Positions 25,221-35,125 of a DNA stretch of 36,812 nt are shown one piece after another. The stretch lies in the NCBI GenBank assembly GCA_028288925.1, contig JAQGHG010000015.1, positions 1-36,812 of the forward strand. Direction: 5' to 3'. The stretch comes from Patescibacteria group bacterium (GTDB lineage Bacteria; Patescibacteriota; Saccharimonadia; UBA4664). The position numbers and the translations under genes were made by a program. Numbering within the stretch: the first letter of the stretch is position 1; each line of letters starts with the position of its first letter. The notes beneath the pieces are model-generated. The model searched no databases, was not told the origin of the DNA, and saw only the letters and a list, made by a program, of their open reading frames with translations.

Positions 25221-25532
25221 ATGAATAATAAGCAGCCTCTTAGTGAATGTGGCGTGAGCCGGGCGTTGGAGGTAATCGGCGGCAAATGGACGCTTTTGAT
25301 TATCCGCGATCTCCTTGACGCGCCCCGGCGGTTCGGCGAACTGGAACATTCGCTAGAAGGCATCTCGCCCCGGACGCTAGCCCTCCGGCTCAAGGAGCTC
25401 GAACACGACGGCGTGTTGACGCGCGACTGCAGCCGGGGGCCCTCCCATCCTATTTACCGGCTGACCCAGCGCGGCCGCTCGCTGCAGCGAATTCTCGACC
25501 AGATGCGCGGTTGGGGCGAAGCGGCTCGCTGA
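25221..25532 (+). CDS. HxlR-family transcriptional regulator
   Basis: A 103-residue winged-helix regulator. It matches HxlR throughout: ECGVSRALEVIGGKWTLLII near the start with the conserved cysteine, RDLLDAPRRFGELEHSLEGI, SPRTLALRLKELEHDGVLTR, and YRLTQRGRSL toward the end. HxlR members often sense redox or electrophiles through the N-terminal Cys. It is divergent from the SRPBCC gene, its probable target, and ends 7 nt before the convergent paralogue B stop. Confidence 0.94.
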   Translation: MNNKQPLSECGVSRALEVIGGKWTLLIIRDLLDAPRRFGELEHSLEGISPRTLALRLKELEHDGVLTRDCSRGPSHPIYRLTQRGRSLQRILDQMRGWGEAAR

Positions 25533-25539
25533 CCGGCCG

Positions 25540-26628
25540 CTAGGCCGGGATGGTCCGCGGGTTCACGAGGGCGCTCTCGAAGGCTTCGGGGAGCCGGGCC
25601 CGGAGCTCGGCACGGGAGAATTTTCGTAAGACTTCTTTGGTGATGATGTAATCTTCGATTTCCCGGTACGCTTGGATGAGCTCGTTATTATCGTGGGCGT
25701 TGGGTTCTTGGGCCGGGCCCAAATGAGCGGTGACAGCCCGCACCTTATTGATGGCCGGCTGGATATCGTGCGGATTTGATACTAGCTGGGCGGTTTTGAT
25801 GACGACATCGATGTAGCTGGCATCGGAGGCCAGGCGCTGATGCGACAGAGCCTTGAAGGCGGTGCCGGCGGCCAGCAGCACTAGGCCGGCGATGAGCCCC
25901 GGCGTTACGCCTAGCGCGTGTTGGGCATACCAGTTGTTGATGGGTAGCGAGCTGCTCATGACCCATTCGATACCCCAACCCACCACGCCAATGGCGCTAG
26001 CCGCGGCCAGCCACTTGATGGCACCGGCATAGAACGGCCCTAGGGCCCGGATGATGCGCAAGACGAGCATCAGGGAGGCGGAGGTGAGCACGAGATTCCA
26101 GGCTACTAGGGCGACATAGATATGAAGCTGGGCTTCGGCGGCGGGCGTGTCCGTTACCCGCAGGTGCGGCAATTGGGTAGCTAGGACGGCGGTCATGGCC
26201 GCCAGCCCGAAGACCAGCCAACGGGAGCCGGCCGGCGATTTGACGCTTAGAATCCTGGCAAACCGCCGCATACCCAAGTAACTCGCCCCGGCCGAAAAGA
26301 TGTAGGGCAGCAGGATGAAGCCCCAGCTCACCCATTTGGTGTCGGTGATGTGGAAGAACACCAGCAGAGGTAGTTGTAGCTGGGCAACCCCCAGCAATAT
26401 GATGCCGGCCGAAAGGAATCCATAAGCGATTTTGAACTGAGTCCGGAAGGTGCGAAGGCTGGTGAGAAAATACCAGGCCGCGCAGACTTGGGTAACGAAG
26501 AGGGCGGCCGACATCACCATTTGGTTGCGGAGGTAGAAACCATTTTCGACGGTGTTGGGAGCCAATAAGAAGACCGCGCCGACAACCAGCACAATTATCG
26601 TAAGCGAGATGGTGAAGCTTTTATACAT
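25540..26628 (-). CDS. Membrane protein of an unrecognised 8TM + cytosolic module family (copy B)
   Basis: 362 residues, no family I recognise. Eight membrane helices fill about 1-260. TM3 contains LLGVAQLQLPLLVFF and TM4 is followed by YLGMRRFARIL. A PH pair lies in TQLPHLR after TM5, and YAGAIKW opens TM7. After TM8 a cytosolic helical module (about 268-350) begins YIDVVIKTAQLVS and contains RAVTAHLGP, QAYREIEDYI and LRKFSRAELRARL. All of these recur in genes 26634-27836 and 33972-35125. The layout resembles a membrane sensor with a short cytosolic output or adaptor module; that role is inferred. It starts 5 nt after the stop of copy A (AAGGAG 1 nt before the ATG), so the two form an operon. 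Confidence 0.85.
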   Translation of the reverse strand: MYKSFTISLTIIVLVVGAVFLLAPNTVENGFYLRNQMVMSAALFVTQVCAAWYFLTSLRTFRTQFKIAYGFLSAGIILLGVAQLQLPLLVFFHITDTKWVSWGFILLPYIFSAGASYLGMRRFARILSVKSPAGSRWLVFGLAAMTAVLATQLPHLRVTDTPAAEAQLHIYVALVAWNLVLTSASLMLVLRIIRALGPFYAGAIKWLAAASAIGVVGWGIEWVMSSSLPINNWYAQHALGVTPGLIAGLVLLAAGTAFKALSHQRLASDASYIDVVIKTAQLVSNPHDIQPAINKVRAVTAHLGPAQEPNAHDNNELIQAYREIEDYIITKEVLRKFSRAELRARLPEAFESALVNPRTIPA

Positions 26629-26633
26629 GCTCC

Positions 26634-27836
26634 TTAGACTAATTTGGGCCAGAAGGTTTGCTGGGCGCCATCGGTGAGACGGAGCTTTTGAGCAATGGTC
26701 TGGCGCAATGATTCTTTGCTAAACTTACGAACCTGTTCACGTTCCAGTAAGTAGCGCTCGATATCCAGATAGACTTGCATGAGTATGGCTTCGTCGGCGG
26801 CGGAGAGTTTCTGGCCGGGCCGCATACGGGCGGTCACGTGGCGCAAACGATCGAGTAGCGAGTCGATAGACTGAGTACTCGAGGCGAGGTTGGCCGCGTA
26901 CACCACAATGTCCACCGAAGACAGATCGGACTGTTTCTGGGGGTGAATGGGCTTACCAAAGAAGTTGCGCGCGACCCAGCCCTGCGTGTCGCCGGCGCCG
27001 GCCGTGATGGTACTAAAGCTGTAAGCGGCCCGGAGCATGAAGATCCCGGCGATGAAGAGCGGGATCATGGGAAAGGCGCCGATGAGAAACCACTGCTGGT
27101 CGCCGACCGATAGGATAGCCAAGATGTCGCCGGCGCCGCCAATCACCAGCGCGATAAATGACACCGTCATCCAGGCCAGGGCATTCGCATACATCACGCT
27201 GGCGATACGCTTGACCTGTAAGACGAAAGCCGCGCCCATGGCCATATTAAATACATCAATGATCGTAAGGCCATTGGCGGCATCAAGCTTAAACTCCGAT
27301 GTAACAGTCGGCACATGGGGGGCCATCACGACAGCGGTTAAGACGATGATGAGACCAACTACTTCGAACCAAATCTTGGTCGTAAAGTTGTGAATGCCGA
27401 AGAGTTTCGCAAGCGCGCGGGTGCCCACATAGACCATTATGATAGCTATCATAAAGGGTATGGCGCTCACGCTATTATCCTTCCAATACGTGCTGAAGGT
27501 GACCAAATAAAGAAACAGCGGGAGCTGCAGAAAGGCGATACCTAGGAATGTAAGCGCGATACAGATGAGGATGTAGACACGCTTGAGCTTACTAGTAAAC
27601 CCGCCCAGCCCCATAATAAACAAGACCGAGGCCCCTACGAAGGAGACGGCGGTACCGATGGCCACGGCGAAGTAGGCGTGAAAGGTTAGCCAATCGTTGC
27701 CCTGAGGGGTGGGCAGTATGAACGAGAGAGCCATGACGGCGATGAGGGTCCCAACAACCCCCCATACGGTTACTTTTGCGCGCTGCATGTGGTGCATTAC
27801 TCCTAAGCTAGGGGTTATGATTTGGCTTACGCTCAT
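26634..27836 (-). CDS. Membrane protein of the same 8TM + cytosolic module family (copy A)
   Basis: About 400 residues from ATG 27836 (AGGA a few nt upstream); the open frame reaches 27959, and ATGs at 27797 and 27788 are alternatives. Eight membrane helices: TM3 has FLGIAFLQLPLFLYLVTF, TM4 ends VYVGTRALAKLFGI, MAPHVP follows TM5, YANALAW opens TM7. A Gly-containing linker leads to the cytosolic module (about 315-395): SSVDIVVYAANLASSTQSID, RHVTARMRPGQ, QVYLDIERYL and VRKFSKESLRQTI. Identity with the split copy C in this module is high by eye. No enzymatic motif is visible. It is the first gene of the A-B pair. Confidence 0.87.
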   Translation of the reverse strand: MSVSQIITPSLGVMHHMQRAKVTVWGVVGTLIAVMALSFILPTPQGNDWLTFHAYFAVAIGTAVSFVGASVLFIMGLGGFTSKLKRVYILICIALTFLGIAFLQLPLFLYLVTFSTYWKDNSVSAIPFMIAIIMVYVGTRALAKLFGIHNFTTKIWFEVVGLIIVLTAVVMAPHVPTVTSEFKLDAANGLTIIDVFNMAMGAAFVLQVKRIASVMYANALAWMTVSFIALVIGGAGDILAILSVGDQQWFLIGAFPMIPLFIAGIFMLRAAYSFSTITAGAGDTQGWVARNFFGKPIHPQKQSDLSSVDIVVYAANLASSTQSIDSLLDRLRHVTARMRPGQKLSAADEAILMQVYLDIERYLLEREQVRKFSKESLRQTIAQKLRLTDGAQQTFWPKLV

Positions 27837-29657: not shown

Positions 29658-30116
29658 CTAGCCTTCTGGGTTGACTCGGCGAACTAGTCTCAGCCAGCAT
29701 TCCCCCATTTCCCAAGCGCCAGAACCGCTCGTGAATAGGAGGCGGGTCCTGGGAAGCTCGATGTCGCCCACTTGGCTCAAAACGTAGTAACCGATCTGTG
29801 GGTAACTCCCCTCCCTGAGGCCAACTCCGTGGTTTCCCAGATGTTTTGTGAGCTTGCTCTGAAAGCCTGAGACCGGCCTGAATGTCCCGAGCTCCCATTC
29901 GCCCCACGGGGCTTCTACGATCAGGGTTCCGTCCCATGCCAGGAAGAGGATTCCCCGAGTATTCCACAGCTCGTTGGACTTAGGTAGGTTGCTGCGGTCG
30001 ATTTGGGTGAACTTCCAGGAGAGGATTTCGGCAAAGTTCCACATGGCGAGGAAGATCTCCCAAGCCTCTCCATCGGCCAGAAGAGGGTGAAAGGATCCCT
30101 CGGATATCGCGTCCAC
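29658..30116 (-). CDS. Orphan Trp-rich soluble protein
   Basis: 152 residues with no recognised family, no signal peptide and no membrane helix. It is rich in Trp and Gly and seems mainly beta-stranded (RGILFLAWDGTLIVEAPWGE, WELGTFRPVSGF, RTRLLFTSGSGAWEMGECWL). The start is GTG at 30116, supported by AAGGAG 8 nt upstream. CATAAT at about 30167-30172 on the minus strand is a possible -10. It ends in a perfect hairpin. Its Shine-Dalgarno-led start and hairpin end match the other family-orphan genes of the window and contrast with the leaderless neighbours. Confidence 0.7.
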   Translation of the reverse strand: MDAISEGSFHPLLADGEAWEIFLAMWNFAEILSWKFTQIDRSNLPKSNELWNTRGILFLAWDGTLIVEAPWGEWELGTFRPVSGFQSKLTKHLGNHGVGLREGSYPQIGYYVLSQVGDIELPRTRLLFTSGSGAWEMGECWLRLVRRVNPEG

Positions 30117-30229: not shown

Positions 30230-30712
30230 CTAAGCCTTGTCGACCCGCAAGGTCTGTTCTAGGAGCTTGGTGATGCGGTCGTTGGCGGCCTTGAGCTGGC
30301 GTTCGGTTTCTTTGAGCTTGGTGATGTCCTGCATTACATTTACCGACAAAATAACCTTGCCCTCGGCGTCTACGACGGGCATGGCCTTGAGCGACGTCCA
30401 TCGCATGCCTTCGTAATGAGGGGCGGCGTAGCCGACGATCATCTCCGGCTCCTCTACCCCCTGCAGCGCCTGGCGGCCTGGGAGTTGCGCGACGGGAATG
30501 GCGCGGCCTTGCTCGTCGTAGAATCTGAACCCTTCGATAATTTTCGCACCGCCTTTGCGCAGAGCATCTTCGGGGCCGGCACAATTCATCATACGGGCAG
30601 CGACCCGGTTTACAAATACGAGCTTACCGGAAGGGTCCTGGACGGTAATGCCATGGGCAATGCCGTGGAGGATTTGGTTGAGCTGATCAATGTCGCTGAT
30701 TAATCGCTGCAT
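30230..30712 (-). CDS. Single PAS-domain protein with C-terminal coiled coil
   Basis: 160 residues from ATG 30712. A PAS domain spans about 10-125: GITVQDPSGKLVFVNRVAAR, then DEQGRAIPVAQLP and RWTSLKAMPVVDAEGKVILS ending VNVMQDIT, the usual PAS C-terminal strand. The tail LKETERQLKAANDRITKLLE is a coiled coil that would dimerise or connect to a partner. No kinase, GGDEF or HTH output is attached, so it may be a free-standing sensor or adaptor. The open frame extends to 30889, across the divergent HIT gene, but TATAAT 7 nt before 30712 fixes the start. Confidence 0.85.
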   Translation of the reverse strand: MQRLISDIDQLNQILHGIAHGITVQDPSGKLVFVNRVAARMMNCAGPEDALRKGGAKIIEGFRFYDEQGRAIPVAQLPGRQALQGVEEPEMIVGYAAPHYEGMRWTSLKAMPVVDAEGKVILSVNVMQDITKLKETERQLKAANDRITKLLEQTLRVDKA

Positions 30713-30719
30713 ATCGCTT

Positions 30720-30727
30720 ATTATAAT
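30720..30727. promoter_or_regulatory. Self-complementary -10 box serving both directions
   Basis: ATTATAAT (30720-30727) is its own reverse complement, so both strands read TATAAT. On the minus strand it ends 7 nt before the PAS ATG at 30712. On the plus strand it ends 6 nt before ATG 30734 (four codons, MRNT, then TGA), with the HIT start at 30749 overlapping after the stop (TGAATG). The two divergent genes thus appear to share one -10 element. Confidence 0.65.
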
Positions 30728-30748
30728 GGATATATGAGGAACACGTGA

Positions 30749-31237
30749 ATGTTTAACCACGCCCCTGTGGATTATTTTTGTCTGTTTTGCTCGTTGCTCG
30801 CGGGAGAGGATGACAAACGAGTTTATTCGAAGCCGGCCGACATTATCTACCAGGATGACTTCGTGACGGCTTTTATTGCCTCGCATCAATTAAAGAATAA
30901 TCCCGGACTCGTGATTGTCATTCCCAACGAGCATGTTGAGAATATTTATGACTTGCCGGATGAGCTGTCCGCCAAGATTCACCAACTCGAGAAACGGCTG
31001 TGCATTGCCGTGCGGGAGGCTTACCCATGCGTGGGCAACGTGATCCGCCAGCATAATGAGCCGATCGAAGGAGCGAAGTGTAAAGGACAAGATGTGCTGC
31101 ACTATCATCTGCAGATTATCCCCCGCTACTCGGACGACCGGATGTACGAGTATGCCGAAGATGGCGAACGCTACCTCATGCCCGAAGATGAGCGGCGGCA
31201 GTATGTAGAGCTGCTTCGCGATAAGCTCGCCTTGTGA
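30749..31237 (+). CDS. HIT-family protein (HxHxQ type)
   Basis: 162 residues of the histidine-triad superfamily, which hydrolyse or transfer nucleoside monophosphates. The zinc pair CLFC lies at 11-14. ADIIYQDDFVTAFIASHQ and NPGLVIVIPNEHVENIYDLP follow. The active site DVLHYHLQIIPRY (about 114-126) has HxHxQ, as in GalT-like and some HIT branches, where the third His is replaced. AGGA lies 9 nt before ATG 30749 within a leader of only about 15 nt. It shares the ATTATAAT promoter region with the divergent PAS gene and ends 4 nt before the convergent glycosyltransferase. Confidence 0.92.
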   Translation: MFNHAPVDYFCLFCSLLAGEDDKRVYSKPADIIYQDDFVTAFIASHQLKNNPGLVIVIPNEHVENIYDLPDELSAKIHQLEKRLCIAVREAYPCVGNVIRQHNEPIEGAKCKGQDVLHYHLQIIPRYSDDRMYEYAEDGERYLMPEDERRQYVELLRDKLAL

Positions 31238-33971: not shown

Positions 33972-34784
33972 ATGGTTACGCTTATGAAATCGGCCCGGCT
34001 TATTATGATTGGCGTACTGGCAGCAGCAGCGTTTGTGGCCGTGTTGGCTCTATACGCGATTCCGCAGCCGGTTTCTTGGAAGGGTAGTGCCCTGCTCTTT
34101 CGCTTGCCGCTGGTTCTGACGTGTGTGTACGTGGTGTTCCACCTAGCGGCGGGGTTGTTGTTTTTAACTACTTTGGATGTTTACAAAGCCGGATTGCGGC
34201 GGGCGTACGCCGCGATCGCGGCCGGGATTATGCTGCTAGGGCTGGCATCGATCCAACTCCCCATTATTAGTGCCTTCAACTTGTGGAACTCGGCCTGGGC
34301 GACACGGGGCGGGATCGTGCTGCCGTTCGTGCTGACGGGAATTATCACCTATAGCGGTATTCGTTCCTTCGCCCGGCTCATCAACATCAGGCATTGGCTC
34401 ACCCGGTTTGGCTTGGTTCTCCCTATGATCGCAAGCCTCTGTGCGCTCTCGGCGTTTTTGCCGCACGTAGCGGCGAACCGCCCCGAGATAGTTTTTGATA
34501 TTTCTAGCGCTATTATCATCTGGGTATCGTTGTTTTATGCGGTATGCGCTCTGACGGCCGCCCAAATAATGCGCTCGGTGGGCGCCCATTATACTCAGGC
34601 GATGGCGTGGCTCGTGGGTGGCCTTGCTACTTCGTCGCTCGTTCTCGCCGTAGCGATCAGCCACACCTTCCTCATAAGTGCCGAGCAGGGCGATTCGGCT
34701 ATCCTGATAGGCGTCTTGGGCCTGATTTCTGGAGTTTTGTATCTGATGGCCGGCTATGCTTTCGCTAAAACGCGGGAGTACTAG
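33972..34784 (+). CDS. 8TM membrane module of the unrecognised family, split copy (C1)
   Basis: 270 residues, equal in length to the membrane part of copies A and B. Eight helices are visible. TM3 has MLLGLASIQLPIISAF, TM4 ends YSGIRSFARLINI, FLPHV follows TM5, YTQAMAW opens TM7, and TM8 ends GYAFAKTREY before TAG. Each of these matches the corresponding position in 25540-26628 and 26634-27836. Here the protein stops after TM8, and the cytosolic module is a separate gene 5 nt downstream in another frame. ATG 33984 is an alternative start. Confidence 0.87.
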   Translation: MVTLMKSARLIMIGVLAAAAFVAVLALYAIPQPVSWKGSALLFRLPLVLTCVYVVFHLAAGLLFLTTLDVYKAGLRRAYAAIAAGIMLLGLASIQLPIISAFNLWNSAWATRGGIVLPFVLTGIITYSGIRSFARLINIRHWLTRFGLVLPMIASLCALSAFLPHVAANRPEIVFDISSAIIIWVSLFYAVCALTAAQIMRSVGAHYTQAMAWLVGGLATSSLVLAVAISHTFLISAEQGDSAILIGVLGLISGVLYLMAGYAFAKTREY

Positions 34785-34789
34785 GCACT

Positions 34790-35125
34790 ATGTCATGGTT
34801 ATCTCGCCTCGCGGGCAAGGAGGAACCGGCGGCCGAGATTACTTCAGCCCTGGACCTCGTGATATACGCGGCGGGTCTGGCCTCCAGCTCACAGGCGATC
34901 GACACCACCCTGCAAAAAGTCCGGCTGATTACGGCCCAGGTGCAGCCGGGCGGCCCTATGCCGGCGGCCGTAGAGGCGCCGCTCCTGCAAGCGTACCTGG
35001 ATATTGAGCAGTATTTGATCTACAACGAGCCGCTCCGGTCGTTTACAAAAGAAGACTTGCGGCGGCGGTTGAGCGAGACTTTGCGGTCTGCATTGGCGAA
35101 GCACGAGGCGCCGAGCCGCAGCTGA
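34790..35125 (+). CDS. Stand-alone cytosolic module of the unrecognised family (C2)
   Basis: 111 residues corresponding to the C-terminal module of copies A and B: SALDLVIYAAGLASSSQAID, RLITAQVQPGG, QAYLDIEQYLI and LRSFTKEDLRRRL. No membrane helix is present. The match covers about 80 residues, with a short unmatched N-terminus (MSWLSRLAGKEEPAAEI). It starts 5 nt after the stop of C1; GGGAG lies 11 nt before the ATG, inside the end of C1. The separate gene shows that the module can fold and act on its own, presumably docking to the C1 membrane protein. Confidence 0.87.
   Translation: MSWLSRLAGKEEPAAEITSALDLVIYAAGLASSSQAIDTTLQKVRLITAQVQPGGPMPAAVEAPLLQAYLDIEQYLIYNEPLRSFTKEDLRRRLSETLRSALAKHEAPSRS

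Follow-up and report, generated by a model that had tools for sequence, protein, structure and literature searches.

A family of eight-helix membrane proteins with a separable cytosolic module, found beside two-component and type IV pilus genes in some Saccharimonadia

Introduction

Two adjacent minus-strand genes and a further plus-strand locus in the window (the entire 36,812-nucleotide stretch of contig JAQGHG010000015.1 analyzed here, from the genome of a Patescibacteria group bacterium) encode predicted membrane proteins with a shared plan that a preliminary description was unable to assign to any family. The question raised by this locus is what these proteins are and in which process they are likely to take part. 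Here we describe the family, its architecture and distribution, and its genomic context in related bacteria, and weigh the functions that could explain them.

Three loci in the window encode members of one family

The first two genes are copy A (P0001, 362 aa; 25540..26628, minus strand) and copy B (P0002, 400 aa; 26634..27836, minus strand), each encoding an eight-TM domain followed by a fused cytosolic module. They are separated by 5 nt, and each is preceded by a Shine-Dalgarno-like sequence; the one located just before the copy A ATG (AAGGAG, 26630..26635, minus strand) overlaps the stop codon of copy B. The profile match of copy B begins near residue 14, so that a later ATG may be the true start of this gene. 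Copy A is convergent with an HxlR regulator gene ending at 25532.

Copy C lies about 6 kb from the A/B pair, on the plus strand, and consists of two genes, one for the membrane domain (P0003, 270 aa; 33972..34784) and one for the module (P0004, 111 aa; 34790..35125), the latter opening with a short hydrophobic/amphipathic stretch, MSWLSRL. The preliminary description had taken 33972-35125 for a single gene; its membership in the family stands, but a TAG codon at 34784 closes the ORF of the membrane domain, and the ATG of the module, at 34790, is in a different frame. A frameshift, sequencing or assembly error was considered and rejected: the split is biological because three related genomes (G165, locus L074; G115, L092; and G260, L079) are split identically, with a separate ribosome-binding-like site for each module.

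When copy B was used as the query in a translated search of its own genome (G000, 1.22 Mb), copy A and both halves of copy C were retrieved, as well as a fourth copy located on another contig (C19:71761-72855; E 1e-32). The matches to the other copies (E 4e-22, 2e-14, 2e-12 and 2e-10) are beyond chance, and every one of the membrane and module motifs listed in the preliminary description is present in all three loci, in agreement with the similarity claimed there. By sequence comparison, the three window loci belong to one protein family. Copies A and B were described as tandem paralogues; a recent tandem duplication is rejected, given that the two proteins are only about 24-26% identical and belong to different parts of the family tree. 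In the same tree, copy C is the sister of a copy from a pilus operon of the genome G003 (support 98/92).

The family appears undescribed and, so far, specific to Saccharimonadia

Pfam, NCBIfam, PHROGs and PADLOC, queried with the window proteins or with the whole set of members, gave no credible match, and neither did profile searches of PDB sequences. The lowest library E-values, obtained with single members (TBCC_N, 1.6e-4; AmaP, 1.1e-3), look like chance matches. Thus, the family appears to be undescribed in every library searched, as the preliminary description had surmised. A viral origin was also considered and rejected as far as a fold search of viral structures goes, in which no match was significant.

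A search of 60 relatives yielded one further carrier, G003. We then used one profile for the module (A3) and another for the membrane domain (A4), as proposed in the preliminary description; both singled out an identical set of 11 genomes among 393 from the class. The carriers belong to five families and encode one to five copies per genome, about 35 copies in total. In a sample of 380 genomes from the phylum, the window genome is the sole carrier. A scan of named genomes with P0002 produced no match, and the module alignment contains no pattern conserved enough for a pattern search; carriers among named records were reached via the conserved neighbor RR1 (see below) instead. These include Candidatus Saccharibacteria CullarsAll.DT.42, YM_S32_TM7_50_20 and UBA2018, and because the named records among the carriers are Saccharibacteria, the class of the carriers corresponds to the Saccharibacteria lineage. 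On the genomes searched, the family is, so far, specific to the class Saccharimonadia.

The membrane domain is a duplication of a four-helix unit

The AlphaFold2 model of copy A, built from a 35-row alignment (pLDDT 93.3, pTM 0.90), contains eight long TM helices (residues 2-22, 30-60, 63-91, 104-126, 136-152, 162-195, 198-227 and 233-261) followed by five short module helices (272-280, 286-301, 311-330, 339-344 and 348-355), with the module confidently placed. The membrane domain, delimited by this model, the charge distribution and the alignment of its halves, comprises residues 1-262 (25843..26628, minus strand), and the cytosolic module comprises residues 263-362 (25543..25842, minus strand). 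The loops TM2-3, TM4-5 and TM6-7 each carry about three Lys/Arg residues, compared to 0.4-0.9 in the outer loops; both termini are therefore predicted to be cytosolic (N-in/C-in), which explains how either of them can carry the module. The eight helices counted in the preliminary description are borne out by the model.

The profile of TM1-4 aligns with that of TM5-8 over 121 columns (hhalign probability 95.9%, E 6.5e-9), and the alignment persists when disjoint sets of sequences are used for the two halves (78%, E 2e-5), whereas reversed and block-shuffled controls score at most 1%. Because the halves align and the controls fail, the membrane domain is a direct duplication of a four-helix unit, with both halves in the same orientation.

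The conserved inner-loop positions are 62, 66, 69, 121, 200, 206 and 258 (copy A numbering), and the conserved outer set consists of Q85, P154-H155, E165 and position 169, which is Asp in most members (D169) and His in copy A. The conserved polar residues are located at the membrane faces, not in the middle of the helices. The outer polar set (Q85, H155, E165, D169) is compatible with ligand or ion sensing but proves nothing, and no recognizable ligand or catalytic motif was found in the family.

The membrane domain and the module are constant partners

Among the approximately 35 membrane domains, 21 are fused to the module in the TM-module order and nine in the module-TM order, and five are encoded by a separate gene; in every case, the module adjoins a membrane domain and the membrane domain adjoins a module. 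Because the module is always found beside its membrane partner, in any arrangement, the two halves are likely to act jointly. Domains that alternate between fusion and separate genes are commonly taken to cooperate, and from this we infer physical contact between the membrane domain and the module. The module-TM order occupies one side of a branch of the family tree, with weak support (62/20). Of the five split copies, four group together and, because the fused G003 copy is nested among them (support 99/98), either fission or refusion of the domains has occurred.

The module itself behaves as a separate helical domain of about 85 residues, in line with the conserved cytosolic module of the preliminary description: it consists of five helices and is fused to either end of the membrane domain or encoded by its own gene. 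A fold search with the module alone yielded no match. We considered the possibility that the module is an HPt domain and rejected it, as none of the 34 modules contains a conserved phospho-accepting histidine. The open reading frames containing the TM domain are no longer than about 440 aa and carry only the family's own module; no fusion to a kinase, cyclase, phosphodiesterase or other known output domain was found among the profile-detected members.

Two loci depart from the common arrangements. In G208 (L076:14029-14334, minus strand), a module-only fragment, apparently a degenerate extra copy, lies directly upstream of an intact module-TM gene (module profile E 3.5e-8). In G260 (L079:6933-8963, minus strand), one free module gene is located between two membrane genes of different subfamilies, which suggests that this module may serve two membrane partners.

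In relatives, the family recurs at a kinase-receiver-PilB operon

Four genomes (G003, G165, G260 and G143) share the gene order HK - [family] - RR1 - RR2 - PilB - PilC, followed by prepilins, and in two others (G208 and G367), a module-TM member adjoins this cluster of kinase and receiver genes; in G367 (L088), PilB is 0.8 kb away from the family gene. In the examples that were checked, the histidine kinase contains HAMP, PAS, HisKA and HATPase domains, PilB contains T2SSE and MshEN, and PilC contains T2SSF. RR1 and RR2 are CheY-like receivers, RR1 being a distinctive one. Genes in the fetched loci were called simply as the longest ORFs. RR1 was detected in eight of 386 class genomes, seven of which carry the family (Fisher p ~1e-11, uncorrected for kinship). 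In six of the seven genomes with both, a family copy is located within three genes of RR1, against an estimated chance probability of 4e-10 under a random-placement model that assumes independent genomes and estimates gene counts from genome size. G134 encodes the family and RR1 apart from each other, and G372 has the RR1 locus with no family copy detected. A text search for papers on Patescibacteria that combine response regulators and histidine kinases with the type IV pilus returned none.

The HK - RR1 - RR2 order is found at L094, L074, L079 and L081 and at the named loci L108-L126, in Saccharibacteria, WWE3 and Microgenomates groups. Because other CPR bacteria (WWE3 and several Microgenomates groups) keep this order, often followed by PilB and PilC, without the family, the latter is an added, optional component of the operon. 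The family is not found in pilus operons generally, being carried by 11 of 393 class genomes. Its slot is where an input or an adaptor would fit. In some of the operon kinases, only a short region precedes HAMP (80 residues in L074), and several of the kinases found at the corresponding position in other CPR bacteria are larger (731-764 aa); this difference might fit a sensor supplied in trans. Such a neighborhood points to a shared process, whichever the direction of signaling. The signaling role proposed in the preliminary description gains from this context, with copies adjoining histidine kinases and receivers at the RR1 locus in six genomes, but not from domain architecture, given the lack of fusion to an output domain.

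About two-thirds of the copies, those in the window included, have no HK, RR or pilus neighbor, and several adjoin unrelated metabolic or ABC-transport genes. The window genome has pilus loci but RR1 was not found in it, so the window copies may serve another circuit. The signaling-like gene nearest to them, five genes from copy B, encodes a PAS-only protein (30230-30889, minus strand; 219 aa). This protein, encoded between the family copies, lacks a kinase domain, has a coiled stretch at its C-terminal end, and clusters by BLAST with kinases encoded near other family copies. Copy B is preceded by cyclase, RibD_C and GNAT genes, and upstream of these lies a gene (29658-30116, minus strand) for a 152-aa protein without a Pfam match. 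Elsewhere in the same genome, there are two HisKA_7TM histidine kinases (C19:38205-38852 and C19:62522-63166), and the fourth copy of the family lies about 9 kb from one of these.

Comparison with known systems and alternative functions

The family resembles the transmembrane sensor domains of bacterial kinases and cyclases (MASE1/MASE6, MHYT, HisKA_7TM and 7TMR-DISM) in combining a polytopic membrane domain, near or with histidine kinases, with a cytosolic helical part. MASE-type sensory domains are usually fused to a kinase or another output domain. By contrast, the family has eight TMs in a 4+4 repeat, no kinase or cyclase fusion, and a module that is uniquely its own. Likeness to MASE-type sensors, raised in the preliminary description, was not recovered at the profile level: comparison with 12 HisKA_7TM (PF16927) sequences gave an hhalign probability of 4.3%, and none of 35 members has a credible Pfam match.

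Microbial rhodopsins were the best structure matches in Foldseek (E 0.04-0.8, probability up to 0.99-1.00), none of them significant (TM-score 0.32-0.41 on the full query and 0.37-0.58 on the targets). Rhodopsins (PF01036) are seven-helix bundles, compared to eight helices here, and there is no profile match. Because no lysine is conserved in any helix core (the largest lysine fraction is 17%), we rejected the possibility that the family consists of retinal proteins.

With respect to the operon, the closest parallel is Chp/Pil control of type IV pili, where the PilG and PilH receivers act on the motor ATPases. The two systems share receiver-only proteins encoded beside pilus motor genes and probably acting by protein-protein contact. 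They differ in that a classical histidine kinase replaces CheA/MCP, and in the added eight-TM protein with its module, which is not known from Chp.

Three other functions were weighed. The membrane domain could be a small-molecule or ion transporter with a regulatory or oligomerization module, the copies at pilus loci being incidental or supplying something. Such a transporter would fit the copies beside metabolic or ABC-transport genes, and it would fit the repeat, since NiCoT, TSUP and other TOG families have been described with eight TMs in a 4+4 arrangement derived from a duplicated 4-TM unit (PMC7176098), as here with both halves in the same orientation. The family differs from the TOG superfamily in the absence of a detected sequence link, the appended signaling-like module and the two-component/pilus context. 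Profiles of TauE/TSUP, rhodopsin and YhhN do not match the family, although this comparison is without power, given that TauE and rhodopsin failed to match each other too (and two of the twelve picks in the TauE set were wrong ORFs). We consider a transporter unlikely, on account of the location of the conserved polar residues at the membrane faces and of the recurrent HK/RR1 slot, which would be left unexplained.

Distinctly less probable is a structural accessory of the pilus or of its inner-membrane platform that would dock the assembly ATPase, with the proximity of HK and RR reflecting mere operon content. The family does share an operon with PilB and PilC in four genomes and comes close to PilB in G367, but it is carried by only 11 of 393 class genomes, other CPR groups have the pilus operon without it, the copies (up to five per genome) are mostly located away from pilus genes, and in the four operons, the family sits between HK and RR1, not amid the pilus genes. 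It is very improbable that the membrane domain is an enzyme, such as a lipid hydrolase of the YhhN/CREST type, to which the module would add a helical accessory domain: H155, E165 and D169 lie near the outer face and there is a structure match to a viral lysoplasmalogenase, but that match is not significant (E 0.04, TM-score 0.53 on the target), and YhhN (PF07947) is absent from the Pfam scans and scores 0.1% in hhalign (against only two YhhN sequences).

Discussion

The reading that we tentatively favor, while giving it somewhat less than an even chance, is that the family serves a two-component circuit as an accessory receptor or adaptor in the membrane, at pilus loci in some genomes. We infer the signaling role, contact with the kinase or receivers, and an effect on the pilus. 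Under this receptor/adaptor model, the membrane domain would sense some condition, either at the membrane or beyond it, and the signal would pass via the three conserved cytosolic loops and the module, which would couple to the kinase or the receivers. At pilus loci, the circuit would consist of the HAMP-PAS histidine kinase and the CheY-like RR1 and RR2, beside PilB and PilC, and the likely end effect would be control of pilus extension, the output probably being PilB activity. What appears to be new is the family; the system resembles a version of two-component control to which a membrane partner has been added.

In Saccharibacteria, attachment to the host, host competition and twitching are driven by type IV pili, and how extrusion and retraction are regulated is one of the questions that a 2025 study of these pili lists as open (PMC12206443). 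With somewhat less confidence than we give the receptor/adaptor role in general, we suggest that in Saccharibacteria, a duplicated four-helix sensor and a separable module, attached at either end or acting in trans, may form a new receptor-adaptor family whose two-component circuit would control type IV pili and might thereby influence attachment to the host. That the two domains occur in either order (A-B and B-A) as well as in separate genes makes this family a clear natural case for physical partnership. It adds an unnamed family to the poorly annotated Saccharibacteria lineage and, being encoded at a kinase-receiver-PilB operon as a membrane component that is both specific and testable, would offer a handle on the control of pilus extrusion and retraction.
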